Under the pieces are notes generated by a model. It searched no databases, was not told the origin of the DNA, and saw nothing but the letters and a program-made list of their open reading frames with translations. Made by a program: the position numbers and the translations under genes. Shown here piece by piece: positions 17,055 through 30,099 of a stretch of DNA of 64,000 nucleotides. Each line of letters begins with the position of its first letter. Position 1 is the stretch's first letter. The stretch is from Bacteroidota bacterium (lineage in GTDB: Bacteria; Bacteroidota; Ignavibacteria; Kryptoniales; JAKASW01), in contig JAKAGT010000006.1 in NCBI GenBank assembly GCA_021825585.1, forward strand, positions 1-64,000. The letters run 5' to 3'.

Positions 17055-18083
17055 ATGGATAACTCTAAAGACCTCTTTGATGTGACTGTGATAGGCAGCG
17101 GTCCTGCAGGATTGTATGGAGTCTTCTATGCCAGACTCCGTGGAATGAAGGCGAAGATACTCGACGCACTCCCGGAACTCGGCGGCCAGCTCGTTACCCT
17201 GTATCCTGAAAAATACATCTACGATGTAGCCGGATTTCCGAAGGTGCTTGCCAAAGACCTGGCCAGGAATCTCGTCGAGCAGGCGCTCTCGCTGGGACCG
17301 ACCGTTTGCCTTGGGGCCAAGGTCACGACGTTGAAGAGCCGTGAGGAAAATTCGCAAAGAATTTTTGAGCTTGTCACGGACGATGGAAGTTCTCACCTCA
17401 CCAAATCGGTCGTGCTGACCGCGGGGATCGGAGCTTTCCAGCCTAAGAGGCTCGATGTGCCCGGCGTCATCGATTTCGAAGGGAGAGGCATCCATTACTT
17501 CGTAAACGAAAAGAAAATCTTCCGCGACAAGGAAATACTCATCGTCGGAGGAGGAGACTCGGCAGTGGATTGGGCACTGAACCTGTCCGACACTGCGAAG
17601 AGAATTACTCTCATCCACCGTCGAGATCAGTTCCGCGCGCACGAAGAGAGTGTCAAGGAATTGCTGTCCTCCCAGGTCGAGGTAAATACGTTTCATGAGC
17701 TGAAAGCAGTCAGGGGAAATTCCACAGTGGAAGAAGCGGTGATATTCGACAACAGGACCGGGGCGGAGCGTGCGCTTCGAGTCGATGCGGTAATCATCAA
17801 TCTTGGATTTCGCGCCGACCTTGGTCCGATAAAAGAGTGGGGACTGGAAATTGATAGAGGCGGCATCAAGGTCAACTATCGGATGGAAACCAGCGTGGTC
17901 GGGATCTTTGCCGCAGGGGATATCGCTTCCCATCCGGGCAAATTGAAACTGATAAGCACGGGCTTCGGTGAGGTTGCAACCGCCGTCAACTTCGCAAAGA
18001 ACCTGGTTGATCCCGGGTCGAAGGTTTTTCCGGGTCATTCGAGCGATATGCAATCGATGCCGTCGACCGCGATCGGTCGCTAG
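17055..18083 (+). CDS. thioredoxin-reductase-like ferredoxin-NADP(+) reductase
   Basis: This flavoprotein passes electrons between ferredoxin and NADP(H). It has 342 residues with an N-terminal FAD Rossmann motif GSGPAGLYGVFYARLRG near residue 13 and a second NADPH motif VGGGDSAVDWAL near residue 165. The CxxC redox pair of true thioredoxin reductases is absent: DSAVDWA sits where CATCD or a relative would be. RRDQFRAHEES is typical of the YumC-type ferredoxin reductases of Firmicutes and green sulfur bacteria. AAGDIASHPGK near the C-terminus binds FAD. It starts 51 bases after folE. Confidence 0.88.
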   Translation: MDNSKDLFDVTVIGSGPAGLYGVFYARLRGMKAKILDALPELGGQLVTLYPEKYIYDVAGFPKVLAKDLARNLVEQALSLGPTVCLGAKVTTLKSREENSQRIFELVTDDGSSHLTKSVVLTAGIGAFQPKRLDVPGVIDFEGRGIHYFVNEKKIFRDKEILIVGGGDSAVDWALNLSDTAKRITLIHRRDQFRAHEESVKELLSSQVEVNTFHELKAVRGNSTVEEAVIFDNRTGAERALRVDAVIINLGFRADLGPIKEWGLEIDRGGIKVNYRMETSVVGIFAAGDIASHPGKLKLISTGFGEVATAVNFAKNLVDPGSKVFPGHSSDMQSMPSTAIGR

Positions 18084-18113
18084 TGCTGATCCAACTATCA
18101 TTTACTAACTTGG

Positions 18114-18190
18114 TCCCGCCGAAAGCGGGCGGGATGCTCATTCCAACAATAATTTTACCTGCACGTTGTTTGGTAAAATTACTTGGAATG
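18114..18190. repeat. two inverted repeats in the FNR-MFS gap
   Basis: TCCCGCC (18114-18120) pairs with GGCGGGA (18128-18134). Directly after it, a long imperfect inverted repeat pairs 18139-18159 (CATTCCA then TAATTTTACC) with 18172-18190 (GGTAAAATTA then TTGGAATG) around a 12-base loop. About 18 of 19 pairs in the shorter arm match, with a small bulge. No T run follows, so it is not an ordinary intrinsic terminator for the FNR gene. It may be a structured RNA, an operator pair or a small non-autonomous insertion. Confidence 0.55.
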
Positions 18191-18323
18191 GCACTGGCTT
18201 CCGCATCTCTCTCGTCTCTTGATTTGTTACGGACAGGGGCATTCGATATATTCGTATCGATTTTCCGTTTCGAAGCGCCTGTGTGCCGGGCAGCTGTTGT
18301 GAGTATTAAGAAATCTCTTGGAA

Positions 18324-23362: not shown

Positions 23363-24568
23363 ATGTCTGAGTTTGATAGTATCGATGCTGCACTCGAAGA
23401 TATAAGGCAGGGAAGATGTTTAATTGTAGTTGACGACGAGGAACGCGAGAACGAAGGTGATTTCGTCCTCGCGGCGGAAAAGATAACCCCCGAGTCGATC
23501 AACTTCCTCACAAAACACGGACGAGGGATAATCTGCGTTTCTCTGCTCCCCGAGCGGGCCGAACGATTGCAGCTCGATATGATGGTTGGAGTCAATACGT
23601 CAATTCACCAGACGGCATTCACGGTAAGCGTGGATGCGTTGAAAGGGACAACGACAGGGGTGTCCGCGTCCGACCGCGCGACGACAATCCTCTCACTCGT
23701 AAATCCGGAAACAACTCCGGCAGATCTCGCAAGGCCCGGACATATTTTTCCCCTCCGTGCAGTGAAGGAGGGGGTGCTGCGGCGGGCTGGCCACACTGAG
23801 GCGGCAATAGATCTCGCGAGGCTCGCGTCACTGTACCCGGCAGGAGTCCTGTGTGAGATTATGAACGATGACGGCACAATGGCGCGCGTGCCCCAGTTGA
23901 TGGAAATCGCGCGCGAGTTCGATTTGCATATCATCACTATCCAGGACCTGATCCATTACCGGATGCAACGCGAGCAGATGGTGAAGAAGGTCGTTGTCAC
24001 CAAGCTCCCTACCAGATACGGCTATTTCGATCTTCACCTGTACCAGAGCATCATCGACAGGAAGGAGCATCTTGCCCTGGTCAAGGGAGAAATACACGGT
24101 GATGTGCCGGTCCTGGTCCGTGTCCACTCGGAATGCCTGACGGGCGATGTGTTCGGCTCGCTAAGATGCGACTGCGGCGAACAGCTTCATTGCGCGATGA
24201 AGAAGGTCGAAAAGGAAGGGACAGGAATTGTCCTTTACATGCGCCAGGAAGGAAGAGGGATCGGCCTCGTAAACAAGATCAAGGCGTACAAACTGCAGGA
24301 CGACGGCCACGACACCGTCGAGGCGAACGAAAAACTCGGATTCAAGGCCGATCTTCGCGATTACGGCATCGGGGCACAGATCCTCGTCGATCTCGGCGTC
24401 AGGAAAATGCGCCTTATGACGAACAATCCGAAGAAAATAGTGGGCCTCGAAGGCTACGGCCTTGAGATTGTCGAGCGAGTTCCGATAGAAATAGAGCCGA
24501 ACGAGGAAAATCAGAAGTATCTTGAGACCAAGCGGGATAAGCTAGGTCATCTTATTCTAGATATCTGA
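23363..24568 (+). CDS. ribBA: bifunctional DHBP synthase / GTP cyclohydrolase II
   Basis: It makes both precursors of riboflavin: 3,4-dihydroxy-2-butanone-4-phosphate from ribulose-5-phosphate and the pyrimidine from GTP. The 401 residues fit the fused form. The N-terminal RibB domain (about 1-205) has [14 protein letters not shown] and FTVSVDA. The C-terminal RibA domain has [20 protein letters not shown] with the zinc cysteines, [11 protein letters not shown] and [15 protein letters not shown]. It begins 2 bases after yajC. A terminator follows at 24661. Confidence 0.96.
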
Positions 24569-24646
24569 TCGGCGCCGGCCGCCAGTCTCAGCGTAAAATG
24601 TGGCGGAAGTTTACACGCGCGCTGGAAATATTTGTCAATAGTTTAT

Positions 24647-24654
24647 TATCTTTG
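24647..24654 (+). promoter_or_regulatory. possible Bacteroidota-type -7 element upstream of greA
   Basis: TATCTTTG matches the TAnnTTTG box described for Bacteroidota primary-sigma promoters. No TTTG element sits at the usual spacing (one lies only 12 bases upstream), and the next feature is a terminator hairpin, so this may be a chance match. Confidence 0.2.
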
Positions 24655-24660
24655 ATCAGA

Positions 24661-24691
24661 GTCCGTCCCCCAGAAAGAGGGACGGACTTTT
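24661..24691 (+). terminator. intrinsic terminator after ribBA
   Basis: GTCCGTCCC (24661-24669) pairs perfectly with GGGACGGAC (24679-24687), followed by TTTT and a T-rich stretch. It lies 92 bases after the ribBA stop and 30 bases before greA, so greA needs its own promoter or relies on read-through. Confidence 0.75.
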
Positions 24692-24721
24692 GTATTTGTA
24701 TGAACGAAGCAGGAGGATTCG

Positions 24722-25198
24722 ATGTCGAATAACTTTGTCTATTTGACAAGAGAAAAACTGGTTGAACTTGAGGCACAGCTCAAGGACATGAAAACCAACG
24801 GCAGGTCGGAAGCCGCAAGGAAGATAGCCGAGGCGAGGTCCCACGGCGATCTTTCGGAGAATTCAGAGTACGATGCCGCCAAAGAAGAAATGCAGATGCT
24901 TGAGCTCCGCATTGCCCAGTTGGAACAGACTCTGACGAGGACTCGGGTGATGGACCCGGCCGAGGTGCGTACGGACAAAGTCTATATCTTCAGCAGGGTG
25001 CATCTGTTGGATATGCTTGCGAACAAGAAGATAGAATACCAGCTCGTCTCGACGGAAGAAGCTGACTTGCTGAAGGGGAAGATATCCACCGATTCACCGA
25101 TAGGAAAAAGCCTTCTCGGCAAAGTAGTGGGAGACGTTGTTTCGGTGAAAGTGCCCGCCGGTATGAAGCAATATAGAATCCTGGAAATAGGCAGGTAA
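24722..25198 (+). CDS. greA: transcription elongation factor GreA
   Basis: It rescues backtracked RNA polymerase by stimulating transcript cleavage. The 158-residue protein has the N-terminal coiled-coil with the acidic tip GDLSENSEYDAAKEE near residue 40 and the C-terminal FKBP-like half ending SPIGKSLLGKVVGDVVSVKV. GCAGGAGG precedes ATG 24722. Its stop overlaps the following start (TAATG), so the CYTH gene is translationally coupled. Confidence 0.94.
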   Translation: MSNNFVYLTREKLVELEAQLKDMKTNGRSEAARKIAEARSHGDLSENSEYDAAKEEMQMLELRIAQLEQTLTRTRVMDPAEVRTDKVYIFSRVHLLDMLANKKIEYQLVSTEEADLLKGKISTDSPIGKSLLGKVVGDVVSVKVPAGMKQYRILEIGR

Positions 25199-25707
25199 TG
25201 CCCAGGAACCTTGAGTTCAAGGCAAAGATAAATGAGATAGTCGCGCTGGAGGAAGCATTCAAGCGGGACGGCGCGTCATTTGTCGAAATCCTCGAGCAGA
25301 CAGACACGTATTTTGTTGTGCCGCGCGGGAGGCTGAAGCTCAGGGAAGCGACGGGGAAGAAAGCAGAGCTTATCTTCTATGAGCGGGACGAGAGTTCTCC
25401 GGAAGAAATGCGGAGTCTCTATGACGTTGTTCCGGCGGACCTCGGGATGGGGGAAGTCCTTTCAAAAGCTCTCGGCGTCAAGGTCGTGGTTTCGAAGAAG
25501 CGGCGGCTTCTCATGCTGAAGAACGCAAGGATACATCTTGACGCGGTAGACGGGCTCGGGGCATACCTGGAATTCGAGGTCATGTCGCAGGGGGACGATG
25601 CCGGCGACGCGATTTTGCTTGACAGACTTAAGAGGATAGCGGCTCCCTTTGTGGAAAGGGAGATCAATGTGTCTTACAGTGATCTGATAACATTGACACG
25701 AGGCTGA
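25198..25707 (+). CDS. CYTH-domain protein (class IV adenylate cyclase/triphosphatase-like)
   Basis: This 169-residue single-domain protein starts with the CYTH signature NLEFKAKI (the NxExK pattern that binds metal and triphosphate). GRLKLRE, AELIFYERDE, KKRRLLMLKNARIHLDAV and GAYLEFEV supply the alternating charged residues that line the tunnel. Relatives are adenylate cyclase CyaB, thiamine triphosphatase and tripolyphosphatases; sequence alone does not separate these. Overlap with greA by one base implies joint translation. Cytoplasmic. Confidence 0.8.
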   Translation: MPRNLEFKAKINEIVALEEAFKRDGASFVEILEQTDTYFVVPRGRLKLREATGKKAELIFYERDESSPEEMRSLYDVVPADLGMGEVLSKALGVKVVVSKKRRLLMLKNARIHLDAVDGLGAYLEFEVMSQGDDAGDAILLDRLKRIAAPFVEREINVSYSDLITLTRG

Positions 25708-26088
25708 CTTTCCAGATTACTCGTCAGTGATGGAGCGAATCCGATTTCCCTGGCAGCAACTCTGTTACGTTTGGATTCAAGATTTCCCTTGTTTAATATT
25801 TGGAAGAACCTAGGGTGGACGGGCCCCGGAAGGGGTCCCGACGGGAGTTTGGAAGGTGAAGGACAAACGGTCGATATGACAAAATGTTGTTCGGGAATAA
25901 GAGATGCACAAGTGATAACGGATTCACGCTTTGGACGTCACAGCGGTGCTCCCCACAAAGTACAACTACCTAAAGAGCGGGCGCAGAAACTGCGGTTCCC
26001 AGTGCTATGGCGAGTCATCGGGTCTGATGACTGACGAACGGGCAGATATTCTGCTGTTGTGCCTGCTCCAAACCAAACGGAGGGTAAA
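25708..26088 (+). other. 380-base non-coding leader before a cysteine-rich lipoprotein gene
   Basis: I see no supportable gene here; the only open frame (87 codons from a TTG) has no domain or ribosome site. The stretch has a GC-rich patch around 25815-25850 and a short hairpin GCAG/CTGC at 26042-26054. It ends with a strong Shine-Dalgarno, GGAGGG at 26079-26084. Possible roles are a long 5' leader or the decayed edge of an insertion. Confidence 0.4.
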
Positions 26089-26302
26089 ATGAATTGCGTT
26101 ACAGTTAAGCAAGCAAAGGATATTCATCCTAATTCTCAGCCTTGCGCCGCTCCAGTCATGCAGTCAGAAGCTCAACGTTTCGGAATCCCCTACAGCAACA
26201 ACCGTCCAAAAAGGATCGGATAGTACTTCTACGACTGCGTCGTCAAAGGAAGTCAAGGGCAATCCAAAGTTATCACCAATTAGGACATCTTCCGTCCAGC
26301 CA
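26089..26302 (+). pseudogene. frameshifted 5' end of the lipoprotein gene (signal peptide and linker)
   Basis: ATG 26089 has an excellent ribosome site (GGAGGG, 4 bases of spacing), but its frame stops at TAG 26221. The frame of the downstream 339-residue ORF is open from 26093 and encodes a lipoprotein signal, KQRIFILILSLAPLQSC, followed by a Ser/Thr-rich linker (NVSESPTATTVQKGSDSTST). No ATG, GTG or TTG exists in that frame before TTG 26303. One base too many between 26104 and 26121 would explain this, so it is a mutation, a sequencing error or a recoding site. Confidence 0.6.
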
Positions 26303-27322
26303 TTGGTTCAATACTACAATGCAGGGGCGACTTATAACGGGCCTGAACAGTGGCGGGCCGATCATTACTGTCCGCGATATGGGGTCTTGATGCTCTTTGA
26401 AAGCAAGGGCATCACCGGGTCATCATCGGGATGGTCCACTATGCGAAATCAATATGGGTTCAATGGGATCATCGGGTTGACCCCATCTTATATTGATCAG
26501 GCCATATCCGTCGGATATAATTTCAAAAATCTGATCAGCGGGCTTCCGGATTCTTTGAGCGAATTGAGTTCATGGGTTTCGCTTGCGCTGTCGAAGTATG
26601 TCACGAATTTTTATTTTGACGAGCCATGCAATAGCAATCACAGTTACTCCCTTGCAACGGCTCGCGATACAATCGGGAGTTTAAGCGGGGGGACTGGAAA
26701 GCTCTGGGCGGCCGATTATTGCACTACGGCTCAAATGCTCGCCAATGCCTGTCCGACTGACTGCCTGATACAACAATATCCCTACATGGACGATCTCGGC
26801 TGCGACAAATATGCTTACACCTTAGGCAGTAGCTGTAGTCAGGTGATTTCTAATTACACAACGTGGAGAAATTCATTCCCGGACAAGTTCGATTTCATTT
26901 GGATCGCCGCCGAGGACGGAGAGACTGGCTGTTATCAGAACGAGTTTGACTGGATGATTCAAAATGGGGGGATCGGTACTGTTGCTCTATACGTCGATGG
27001 GAGTTCAAACTGGTCGGATGTTACGGATTTTTGTCAGCAGGCATATTCACACGGTTATCTTAACCAGGTATACAGACAGTTCCATTCGGTCTATACATGC
27101 CGCTACAATAATGTGAGCTTTCCTCCGGCGTGCTGCGGTGGGAGCGATTACGGAATGTGGGACGCCTCAACTCAGACTTATATTGAATGCAGCAACCCTA
27201 ATGGATCCGGCTGCGTGCAAGTGTGGTATCTTACGAGCAACGTTGATGACAACGGATGGTCCAACCCCACTCCGTACGGATCAACTATCACGTACTTCGG
27301 AACAACCAGCCCTTGCCCATAA
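26303..27322 (+). CDS. cysteine-rich secreted/lipid-anchored protein, TIM-barrel glycosidase-like
   Basis: I do not recognise a named family. The body (339 residues from TTG 26303; the true start is upstream, see 26089-26302) alternates strands and helices like a TIM barrel: YGVLMLFE, YGFNGIIGLTPSYI, VTNFYFDEPC with paired acids, KLWAADYC, CLIQQYPYMDD, FDFIWIAAEDGETG and IGTVALYVDGSSNW. The DEP and AEDGE acids could be a catalytic pair of a glycoside hydrolase. It has at least 15 cysteines, which suggests several disulfides. The C-terminal 90 residues (from YRQFHSVYTCRY) form a separate Cys/Tyr/Asn-rich module. The gene appears more AT-rich than its neighbours, hinting at transfer. Confidence 0.6.
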   Translation: MVQYYNAGATYNGPEQWRADHYCPRYGVLMLFESKGITGSSSGWSTMRNQYGFNGIIGLTPSYIDQAISVGYNFKNLISGLPDSLSELSSWVSLALSKYVTNFYFDEPCNSNHSYSLATARDTIGSLSGGTGKLWAADYCTTAQMLANACPTDCLIQQYPYMDDLGCDKYAYTLGSSCSQVISNYTTWRNSFPDKFDFIWIAAEDGETGCYQNEFDWMIQNGGIGTVALYVDGSSNWSDVTDFCQQAYSHGYLNQVYRQFHSVYTCRYNNVSFPPACCGGSDYGMWDASTQTYIECSNPNGSGCVQVWYLTSNVDDNGWSNPTPYGSTITYFGTTSPCP

Positions 27323-27337
27323 GAAAGGGGGATGAAA

Positions 27338-28003
27338 ATGATAAGGACGTTCTATTTGTTCATTGCTTTATTGCTGCTGGTATCGGGAGCGGACTGCAAC
27401 GCCCAGGGAAGCCGGAGTTATTTTGGCGTGGAATACGAGCTTAATCCCACGCCAAGCTTTGTTTTTCACGGTGGAGGAAATCCTGTTAGGTGGGATAATG
27501 TTGCACTTTACGCAGGGTATTTCACCGACCGGTATACGTCCGTCGAGGCATTTACGACGCTTGGAGAATTCAGTGATCGGAATTACCTGAGCAAAGAGGG
27601 CCTCTATTTCCCTGCCGAATATGTCATAACAAAGAACGTGGACAGATTCTTATTTGCTACGGCAGGTATTCGGTTGAACCTTGGTTCCAGCTATTCTGCA
27701 AGGGGTGTAAGATGGTATTTCTTGTTGGGTACCGAGGGGATCTTCTTTGGAGCACCGTATCGCGAGAGGAGTATAACTTACTATGATGGCATTCTCGACA
27801 GTGTTCTTACGAGGAAATGGGGCTTCCCGATTTTCAGGTATCAAGGTTGGGGAATAACTCTGCTTGGGTTCAGACTGATTGTGCCGACCCGCTACATAGA
27901 TCTATCCTGGACCTCACAATTCACGATTCCTGTGCTTAAATGGGGATGGAACGACATGCCGGATGCCACACTTTTGTCGAGTACGGTAGGAGTCCAGTTT
28001 TAG
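27338..28003 (+). CDS. outer-membrane beta-barrel-like protein of unknown function
   Basis: 221 residues from ATG 27338, chosen because AAAGGGGG at 27324-27331 is 6 bases upstream; ATG 27332 is too close. A signal peptide (FYLFIALLLLVSGADCNAQG) leads into amphipathic strands rich in Tyr, Trp and Phe (YFGVEYELN, NVALYAGYFTDR, VRWYFLLGTEG, DLSWTSQF). It ends in a terminal Phe (VGVQF), as outer-membrane barrels do. No family is recognised. It follows the cysteine-rich lipoprotein after 15 bases, so the two are probably one operon at the cell surface. Its stop overlaps that of dusB on the other strand. Confidence 0.6.
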   Translation: MIRTFYLFIALLLLVSGADCNAQGSRSYFGVEYELNPTPSFVFHGGGNPVRWDNVALYAGYFTDRYTSVEAFTTLGEFSDRNYLSKEGLYFPAEYVITKNVDRFLFATAGIRLNLGSSYSARGVRWYFLLGTEGIFFGAPYRERSITYYDGILDSVLTRKWGFPIFRYQGWGITLLGFRLIVPTRYIDLSWTSQFTIPVLKWGWNDMPDATLLSSTVGVQF

Positions 28004-29022
28004 GGAATCAGCGGCGCCCGATCCGCAATCGAGGCAGCCAGATCTTCCGGAGGGGGCATTCCTTCCAGGAACCTGTTGAATGCCGCTTCTATTTCTGGAA
28101 ACGTCTCCAGCCTTACTAACGTCGATCTCAGCGTGGAGCCGTTCCGGATTCCGTGGACATATCCGTGATAATATTTCCTGAATTCCGTCAGTCCGCGGTG
28201 TTCGCCTTTTAACCCTATCTCCATCTTCAGGTGGCGGAGACAGGTGTCAGCCCGCTCGCGGAAGTCGGCAGGGGGAGGAACGGCGCCGTGTTTAATCAGA
28301 TGTTTTATATCCCGAAAGATCCATGGATTACTGACGGCTCCCCTGGCAACCATGACGCCGTCGCACTTTGTTGATTCGAACATATCGAGCGCATCCTGCG
28401 CCGACCGTATATCGCCGTTGCCTATGATGGGAAGCTCAGCCATTTCCTTGATGCGCCGGATCCAGTCCCAGTCGGCATCGCCGTCGTGATGCTGCGCCCT
28501 CGTGCGTGCATGAATTGTCAGTGCCGATAATCCTTCGCCTGCGCAAATCTTTGCGACCTCGGGTATCGTAATGGAGTTCGAGTCCCAGCCGAGGCGCGTC
28601 TTTAAAGTGACCGGAATTGAAACCGCGCTCTTCACGGCGTGAATTATCGACTTCATCTGGCCGAGGTCCTTCAGAAGTCCGGCTCCCGCGCCTCGCTGAG
28701 CGACTTTGGGAACCCAGCAGCCCGCGTTGATGTCGATGAAATCCGGTCCTGCATCTTCTGCCATCCTTGCGGCTTCGGCCATCACGTTCGGATCGCCGCC
28801 GAATATCTGGATGCCGACAGGGCGTTCCTTTTCGCTGGTAATGAGTTTCTGCGTGCTTTTTCTTGCTGAGCGGATCAAGCCCTCGGAACTGATGAACTCG
28901 GTGTAGACTATGTCCGCCCCGAATTCCTTGCAGATAAGTCGGAAGCCGAGGTCCGTCACATCCTCCATCGGGGCAAGTGCAACGGGGTTTTCTAATTCGT
29001 ATTTTCCCAGGTTTATCTTCAT
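28000..29022 (-). CDS. dusB: tRNA-dihydrouridine synthase
   Basis: This flavin enzyme reduces uridine to dihydrouridine in tRNA. It has 340 residues with an FMN-binding TIM barrel: NPVALAPMEDVTD at residue 12, VGIQIFGGDP, and the catalytic cysteine in DINAGCWVPKV near residue 100. The usual 'GCP' is here GCW, a small change. TLKTRLGW, IHARTRAQHH and GNGDIRSAQDA are family typical, and the C-terminal helical domain is present. DusB is the most likely subfamily. Start ATG 29022 follows AGGCGGAAC. Downstream it overlaps the converging outer-membrane-like gene by 4 bases. Confidence 0.9.
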   Translation of the reverse strand: MKINLGKYELENPVALAPMEDVTDLGFRLICKEFGADIVYTEFISSEGLIRSARKSTQKLITSEKERPVGIQIFGGDPNVMAEAARMAEDAGPDFIDINAGCWVPKVAQRGAGAGLLKDLGQMKSIIHAVKSAVSIPVTLKTRLGWDSNSITIPEVAKICAGEGLSALTIHARTRAQHHDGDADWDWIRRIKEMAELPIIGNGDIRSAQDALDMFESTKCDGVMVARGAVSNPWIFRDIKHLIKHGAVPPPADFRERADTCLRHLKMEIGLKGEHRGLTEFRKYYHGYVHGIRNGSTLRSTLVRLETFPEIEAAFNRFLEGMPPPEDLAASIADRAPLIP

Positions 29023-29217
29023 ATTCTGTTCCGCCTCACAATTTAGGCATAGCGCGCGGGATAGAGCAAGGCGGAAATTGAGAGGTAATTTTGGGGACTA
29101 CATCCCTCATAGCTGAGGTTTCAAGCGGCTGGGATTCCAACAAAGCCGCCAGCCCAATCGTCCGGTATTCCGGCGAAAGGGGGTCTACTCGGTTTTGTTC
29201 TGATGCGCCGAGATGCG
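29023..29217 (-). other. hisG-dusB intergenic region
   Basis: This 195-base gap contains no ORF worth calling. A weak inverted repeat (GGCTGG/CCAGCC) lies around 29125-29155. It could end the hisG transcript or hold the dusB promoter, but no clear box is visible. Confidence 0.25.
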
Positions 29218-30099
29218 CTACGGCACGATCTTGTTCAGCGGATACTCGATGATTCCTTCAGCACCGTTGCGTTTCAATTCCGGGACGATGATCCTTACAG
29301 TGCGCTCGTCGATTATAGTCTCGATGGCGACCCACTCGTTGTCATATAGCGGGGAAACCGTCGGTTTCCGGAGCGCCGGGATTATACCGATGACTTTCGG
29401 GAGATCAGATTTTCTGATATTCATTTTCAGTCCTACCTTTCCCTCGGCCGCGATCGCGCCCTTCAGCAACAATGCGATGGTCTCGATCTTCTCGCGCTTC
29501 CACTGGTCCTTGTACGCCTCGTTGTTTGCGATGAAGCGCGTTGAAGATTGCAGGACGGTATCGATTACTCGAAGATGATTTGCGCGGAGGGAACTCCCGG
29601 TCTCGGTGACTTCGACGATTGCGTCCGCAAGTTCCGGTACCTTCACCTCTGTCGCACCCCACGAAAATTCCACGGATGCTTCGACTCCGTTCCGTTGGAG
29701 GTACTGTTTCGTGATGTTCACGACTTCCGTGGAGATACGCTTACCATGTAAATCCCTCACGGTTTTGAACTCTGAGTCTTCCTGGACCGCGAGGACCCAT
29801 CTGACCGGGCGCATGCTCTGTTTTGCATAAACGAGTTCTGCAACCTCCGTCACGTTGCTGTTAGTCTCGATGATCCAGTCTTTACCGGTTAATCCGGCGT
29901 CAAATGTACCCAGCTCTACATAGCGTGCCATTTCCTGGGCACGCACGAGCATGATTTTCAATTCATCGTCCTCGACGGTGGGGAAGTAGCTCCTTGACGA
30001 TACGGAAATGCCGTAGCCGGCCTTTTGAAACAATGAAAAAGTTGATTCCTGCAGACTCCCTTTCGGGAGACCCAGTTTTAACACTTTATCTGCTGACAT
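29218..30099 (-). CDS. hisG: ATP phosphoribosyltransferase, long form
   Basis: It joins ATP to PRPP, the first and feedback-controlled step of histidine synthesis. The 293 residues indicate the long, self-sufficient form with a C-terminal ACT-like regulatory domain, so no HisZ subunit is needed. [38 protein letters not shown] and [20 protein letters not shown] (the PRPP-binding loop) are clear; the regulatory part starts near residue 215 with [26 protein letters not shown] precedes the ATG. No other his genes adjoin it. The hutH/hutU pair at 9-14 kb runs in the opposite metabolic direction. Confidence 0.94.

Follow-up and report, generated by a model that had tools for sequence, protein, structure and literature searches.

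An AAGC repeat behind the start codon suggests length-dependent switching of a lipoprotein gene family in a Bacteroidota bacterium

The gene at positions 26089–27322 of the window (the whole stretch of 64,000 nucleotides that was analysed) is most probably an OFF member of a multi-copy family of surface lipoproteins whose expression would depend on how many AAGC units follow the ATG. We give this reading a probability of about 0.8. The genome concerned (G000; 4.97 Mb) is a draft assembly of 88 contigs and contains nine copies of the gene, i.e., the window copy and eight paralogues with longer tracts (A to H).

The window copy lies on the forward strand and has a Shine-Dalgarno sequence, GGAGGG (26079–26084), four nucleotides before ATG 26089; GGAG also precedes the ATG in all eight paralogues and in both copies found in another species of the genus (G006). 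The frame opened by this ATG ends at TAG 26221–26223 after 44 amino acids (26089–26223), and this short peptide would be the OFF-state product. The lipoprotein is encoded in the next (+1) frame, which is out of phase with the ATG, free of stops from 26093, and 409 codons long (26093–27322, stop at 27320–27322). Its signal-peptide region (26093–26158) leads to a lipobox, LQSC, assigned by motif only, whose cysteine (codon 26159–26161) is invariant in all ten aligned family members. The lipidated cysteine and a Ser/Thr-rich linker, with boundaries drawn by eye, occupy 26159–26284 and the mature domain 26285–27319; the mature part has 16 cysteines, counting the lipidated one. The earliest ATG, GTG or TTG in this frame is TTG 26303, which would give 339 amino acids. 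A preliminary description of this DNA had reported the out-of-phase start and its stop, the lipobox and linker in the adjacent frame, the lack of a usual start codon before 26303, and 15 or more cysteines, all of which agree with the sequence and its translations. It had also placed the misfit between 26104 and 26121. This interval indeed contains the tract AAGCAAGC (26107–26114), two AAGC units within the signal-peptide n-region, but the misfit is better described as a matter of repeat-tract length than as a lone stray base. ATT 26093 was considered as a rare start and dropped, since the G006:C70 copy, which also has a two-unit tract, contains no such codon there. The leader or promoter region (25893–26088) is common to the window copy, the C26 paralogue, and the G006 copies (77.8% identity by blastn over 302 bases against G006:C70; a three-row alignment was also made), and an Rfam search of 24500–27500 gave no match. 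Elsewhere in the window, 117 bases (18079–18195) are 95% identical to a stretch of G006:C70 and represent a dispersed repeat.

A DNA search of the own genome with the window gene recovered, besides the gene itself, only its leader at three places. Searching for three AAGC units returned nine tracts (23 overlapping matches, against one match for the reversed control). Eight of these have at least four units, and every one of the eight is in a paralogous lipoprotein gene, starting 15–22 nt after the first base of the ATG; over the 4.97 Mb genome, base composition predicts about 0.002 occurrences of an exact (AAGC)4. The ninth tract, three units on C73, is in no family gene. Six paralogues stand together on C63: A (C63:53762, five units), C (C63:58669, five units), and F (C63:68789, five units) are out of phase, and B (C63:55823, six units), D (C63:62152, four units), and E (C63:65228, four units) are in phase. 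The other two are G (C6:37952, four units, in phase) and H (C26:238276, minus strand, five units, out of phase). The in-phase copies are thus the six-unit copy and the three four-unit copies, and all four five-unit copies are out of phase. In the C63 array (L006, C63:50000–69000, with L031), the six lipoprotein genes alternate with genes for secreted, barrel-like products, which fall into three sequence groups, and a second radC-like fragment lies near the contig end. Runs of nine G gave five overlapping matches at three places in the genome.

The tracts differ in length by whole units, both between paralogues and at one locus common to two genomes. The ATG-to-tract-end distances of one 5′ subtype are 31, 35 or 39, those of the second 26 or 42, and within each subtype they are congruent modulo 4. 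Phases 0, 1, and 2 all occur among the paralogues. Four of eight long-tract copies are in phase, or four of nine with the window copy (P of at least four = 0.35 at an expectation of 1/3); this is what chance would give, so the phases themselves show no selection. No (AAGC)4 was found in 12 other genomes of the genus, which makes the long tracts a feature of the own genome at the resolution of one genome per species.

These patterns suggest a switch in which slipped-strand mispairing would add or remove AAGC units and thereby turn a copy ON or OFF. At an ON length, the ribosome would run from the ATG into the lipoprotein; at other lengths, it would release a peptide of 13–44 residues. Since a four-base unit shifts the frame, the ATG is in phase with the lipoprotein at roughly one in three tract lengths. 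Whatever the frame, the tract encodes K-Q-A-S, so that units in any number add positive charge to the n-region and bring in no stop. Several loci with different bodies could generate many surface types in one population. We infer slippage-driven switching of these genes in living cells, surface exposure of the product, and, as the pay-off, escape from phages, predators or toxins. Switching may be slow even at four to six units, which are short tracts; the two units of the window copy are hardly slippery, and it may never switch. This copy is probably parked or locked OFF, or very slow, and could come back into play by a rare gain of units or by recombination with the 5′ module of a sister copy.

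Phase variation would leave silent copies functional, and the OFF copies do keep intact, constrained frames. All nine bodies are stop-free, including those of A, C, F, H, and the window copy. In a set of ten sequences (the nine copies and the G006:C70 copy), pS exceeded pN in all 45 pairs, OFF-OFF pairs included (pS 0.60–0.89; pN 0.21–0.56), and dN/dS was 0.13 for the OFF pair C and H. Synonymous sites are saturated in most pairs, so these values reflect long constraint and cannot date the OFF state. Some relatives lack the repeat (C36, C57, and G003:C48 have an in-frame start and no AAGC) and others are broken, with an in-frame TGA in C37 and G011:C58, and fragments in C57 and G011:C27.

Alignments of the copies indicate that the 5′ switch module has been homogenised between them while the protein middles diverged. 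Paralogues C and D are 100% identical over 200 bases upstream, 90% in the signal region, and 48% in the body; an exact match of 346 bases is followed by a difference of one unit and then by 82 more bases in common. B and F are identical in the signal region (100%) but not in the body (43%), and F combines this signal region with upstream DNA that resembles the C/D version (95% between −200 and −60). At the protein level, C, D, E, G, and H are 73–80% identical over residues 1–50, 35–36% over 101–150, and 75–81% over 301–375. The locus common to G000:C26 and G006:C70 (L005 vs L078) reads as a cassette replacement: the flanks agree at 91.7% and 99.5%, one lipoprotein body has been exchanged for another, and the tract has five units in G000:C26 and two in G006:C70. 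The main technical doubt concerns the C63 array, where exact repeats of 271 and 346 bases could have led a short-read assembly to exchange 5′ modules.

The window gene itself recurs in G006 (record JAMCXB010000047.1) with an identical tract. A block of about 4.4 kb (24750–29150) is nearly identical to G006:C17; the sequence before it shows about 80% similarity, and beyond it the match breaks off near 29250. Between 25903 and 27315 the two species are identical; the differences in the rest of the block comprise scattered sites and a 100-base patch of low identity (27316–27424), which covers the signal peptide of the downstream partner gene. The block suggests that DNA was exchanged recently between the two species; a chimeric contig is another possible source, but it would have to produce the block differences as well.

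The most serious alternative is that the window gene is a plain pseudogene, in which an irreversible frame-shifting change at the start has left the body as a recent relic; we consider this unlikely, though far from negligible. A tract of two units would seldom slip, the recently exchanged block has had little time to decay, and other relatives (the TGA-bearing and fragmentary copies listed above) are clearly broken. Against these points stand the 409 open codons and the absence of interspecies differences from 25903 to 27315, although recent transfer alone would explain the latter, and the four OFF sister copies with long tracts, which are intact too. The preliminary description had listed a null mutation among the causes; it was right that the copy is OFF, but the pattern across the family is that of repeat-length phase variation, a cause it had not listed.

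The other two causes that it had listed fare worse. A sequencing or assembly error at the tract would be conceivable in a draft of 88 contigs, but the G006 assembly shows an identical tract in a block that has differences at other sites, and hence does not represent a copy of one and the same molecule; the G006:C70 copy likewise has two units. We regard such an error as very unlikely. Programmed ribosomal frameshifting, or another form of recoding that joins the two frames, could draw on an overlap at a repetitive site that is conserved in two species. It is nevertheless disfavoured to the point of being barely credible, since the paralogues, which occupy all three phases, would need opposite shifts or, in four cases, none; no Rfam element was found nearby; and there are repeat-free relatives that are in frame (C36 and G003:C48). 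A further reading, translation from TTG 26303 as a cytoplasmic protein with the signal-peptide frame as a relic, would account for the 339 codons that this TTG opens, and the distant relatives L087, L092, and L094 begin at their own Shine-Dalgarno sequence and ATG without a signal peptide. It is highly improbable, however, given that the lipobox and linker match those of the in-phase sister genes and that the TTG aligns inside the conserved start of the domain. Gene callers deserve caution in this respect, as they may start such a product at TTG 26303 or overlook it. Repeat-length phase variation remains the reading that we prefer.

The preliminary description had assigned the lipoprotein to no family. 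Alignments of 9 and 22 rows, used to search Pfam and PDB sequences (NCBIfam with the nine rows only), returned nothing meaningful: no Pfam or NCBIfam model reached the cut-off and no PDB sequence match was convincing. Autotransporter beta-barrel Pfam families were likewise not detected up to E = 1 in any of 9 or 22 members. A profile search of 391 genomes of the class detected relatives in 18, counting the own genome. Viral contigs gave 18 pattern matches and no relatives, and a tblastn search of plasmids with one paralogue found none. An Asp-Glu-Pro motif (26618–26626) provides the sole invariant columns among 22 aligned relatives (22/22); no second invariant acid was seen outside it in these 22 rows, where an alignment at 15–18% identity may hide one.

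AlphaFold, run with three sequences, produced two models, both with a mean pLDDT of 44, in which beta/alpha alternation is followed by strands, i.e., a beta-rich C-terminus of the mature domain. A single Foldseek search listed mostly enzymes that, by their titles, have barrel folds (TM of about 0.2); given the mean pLDDT of 44 in both cases, this search was not used as evidence for the fold. The TIM barrel suggested by the preliminary description is plausible, in that it agrees with the predicted secondary structure, but unproven. Its glycosidase idea is a guess that no family match supports. Clan GH-A-type glycoside hydrolases carry an NEP motif, with which DEP can be compared: beta/alpha alternation and a Glu-Pro pair behind a predicted strand occur in both, but the present family has no profile match, no second conserved acid, and an unproven fold.

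All nine lipoprotein genes in the own genome are followed by a secreted, barrel-like frame, and these partners fall into at least three sequence groups. The partner of the window copy (27332–28003, forward strand, 223 amino acids, with a signal peptide and an aromatic C-terminus) stands apart from the other groups and has no Pfam or PDB match. Judged by eye, the partner frames may encode outer-membrane beta-barrels. Outside the genus, we inspected ten of 14 loci (L051, L052, L086–L090, and L092–L094; the remainder are L091 and L095–L097). A secreted-looking frame of 205–237 codons lies directly downstream in seven of the ten, upstream in one, and is absent from two, such that it adjoins the lipoprotein-like gene at L051, L052, L086, L087, L088, L092, L093, and L094. 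The two genes may form a two-gene system across the class. Homology between the distant partners and the barrel-like genes of the own genome was not found (best cross E of 0.004).

A broader reading, which we hold tentatively and at slightly under even odds, is that nine loci under one AAGC module constitute an independent Opa-like engine of combined phase and antigenic variation in an uncultured, apparently free-living Bacteroidota lineage. Each locus would then sit beside small beta-barrel-like genes, recombination near the switch would bring in new bodies, and whole cassettes would pass between species, with phages, predators or competitors rather than an immune system as the drivers. Two related records are named Bacteroidetes bacterium, one of them with the isolate name FK_Sedi_B_Bin.45; this name and Fankou, a mine site, suggest that mine sediment may be the habitat of a free-living host. 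In the accessible part of one report, FKsedi appears together with Fankou (PMC5864196). Most known cases of surface proteins switched by repeat length come from host-adapted pathogens. If the broader reading is true, an AAGC device at the same signal-peptide place, in an unrelated family and a sediment lineage, would mean that such switching evolves again without an immune host, and environmental long reads could reveal the ON/OFF state of nine loci directly. Literature searches on phase variation in Bacteroidetes/Bacteroidota, confined to open papers and judged mostly from titles and abstract openings, listed no report of such a system in this group.

The multi-locus arrangement recalls opa of Neisseria gonorrhoeae, whose product is an integral beta-barrel. 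The available part of a study of opa describes many loci with a repeat in the signal-sequence DNA, few of which are in frame at once, and alleles diversified by recombination and gene conversion (PMC13183285). The many loci, the place of the repeat, the small number of loci in frame at once, and the recombining alleles are alike in the two systems, whereas the opa repeat is a pentanucleotide, CTCTT, and ours a tetranucleotide, AAGC, and we claim no sequence relation. In Bacteroides, as far as the consulted portion of the source extends, surface genes undergo phase variation by invertible promoters (PMC11868660); the phylum-level group and the surface products are shared with the present case, but the mechanism is DNA inversion, not repeat slippage. 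The closest parallel in the repeat itself is with autA and autB of Neisseria meningitidis and a related Haemophilus gene, in which, according to the part of the report available, AAGC units directly follow the start codon and lie in signal-sequence DNA (PMC5118866). There, autB has 2 to 10 units among patient isolates, the majority of the genes are intact although OFF, and a lower switching rate is expected when units are fewer (PMC5118866). The unit, its place after the start codon, the OFF-yet-intact genes, and gene exchange between species are all alike, but autA and autB encode autotransporters with a beta-barrel translocator, while ours is a lipoprotein of another family, in Bacteroidota, with nine copies in one genome. 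The proteins appear unrelated as far as profiles show, and the likeness to autA/autB and opa would be one of working principle.
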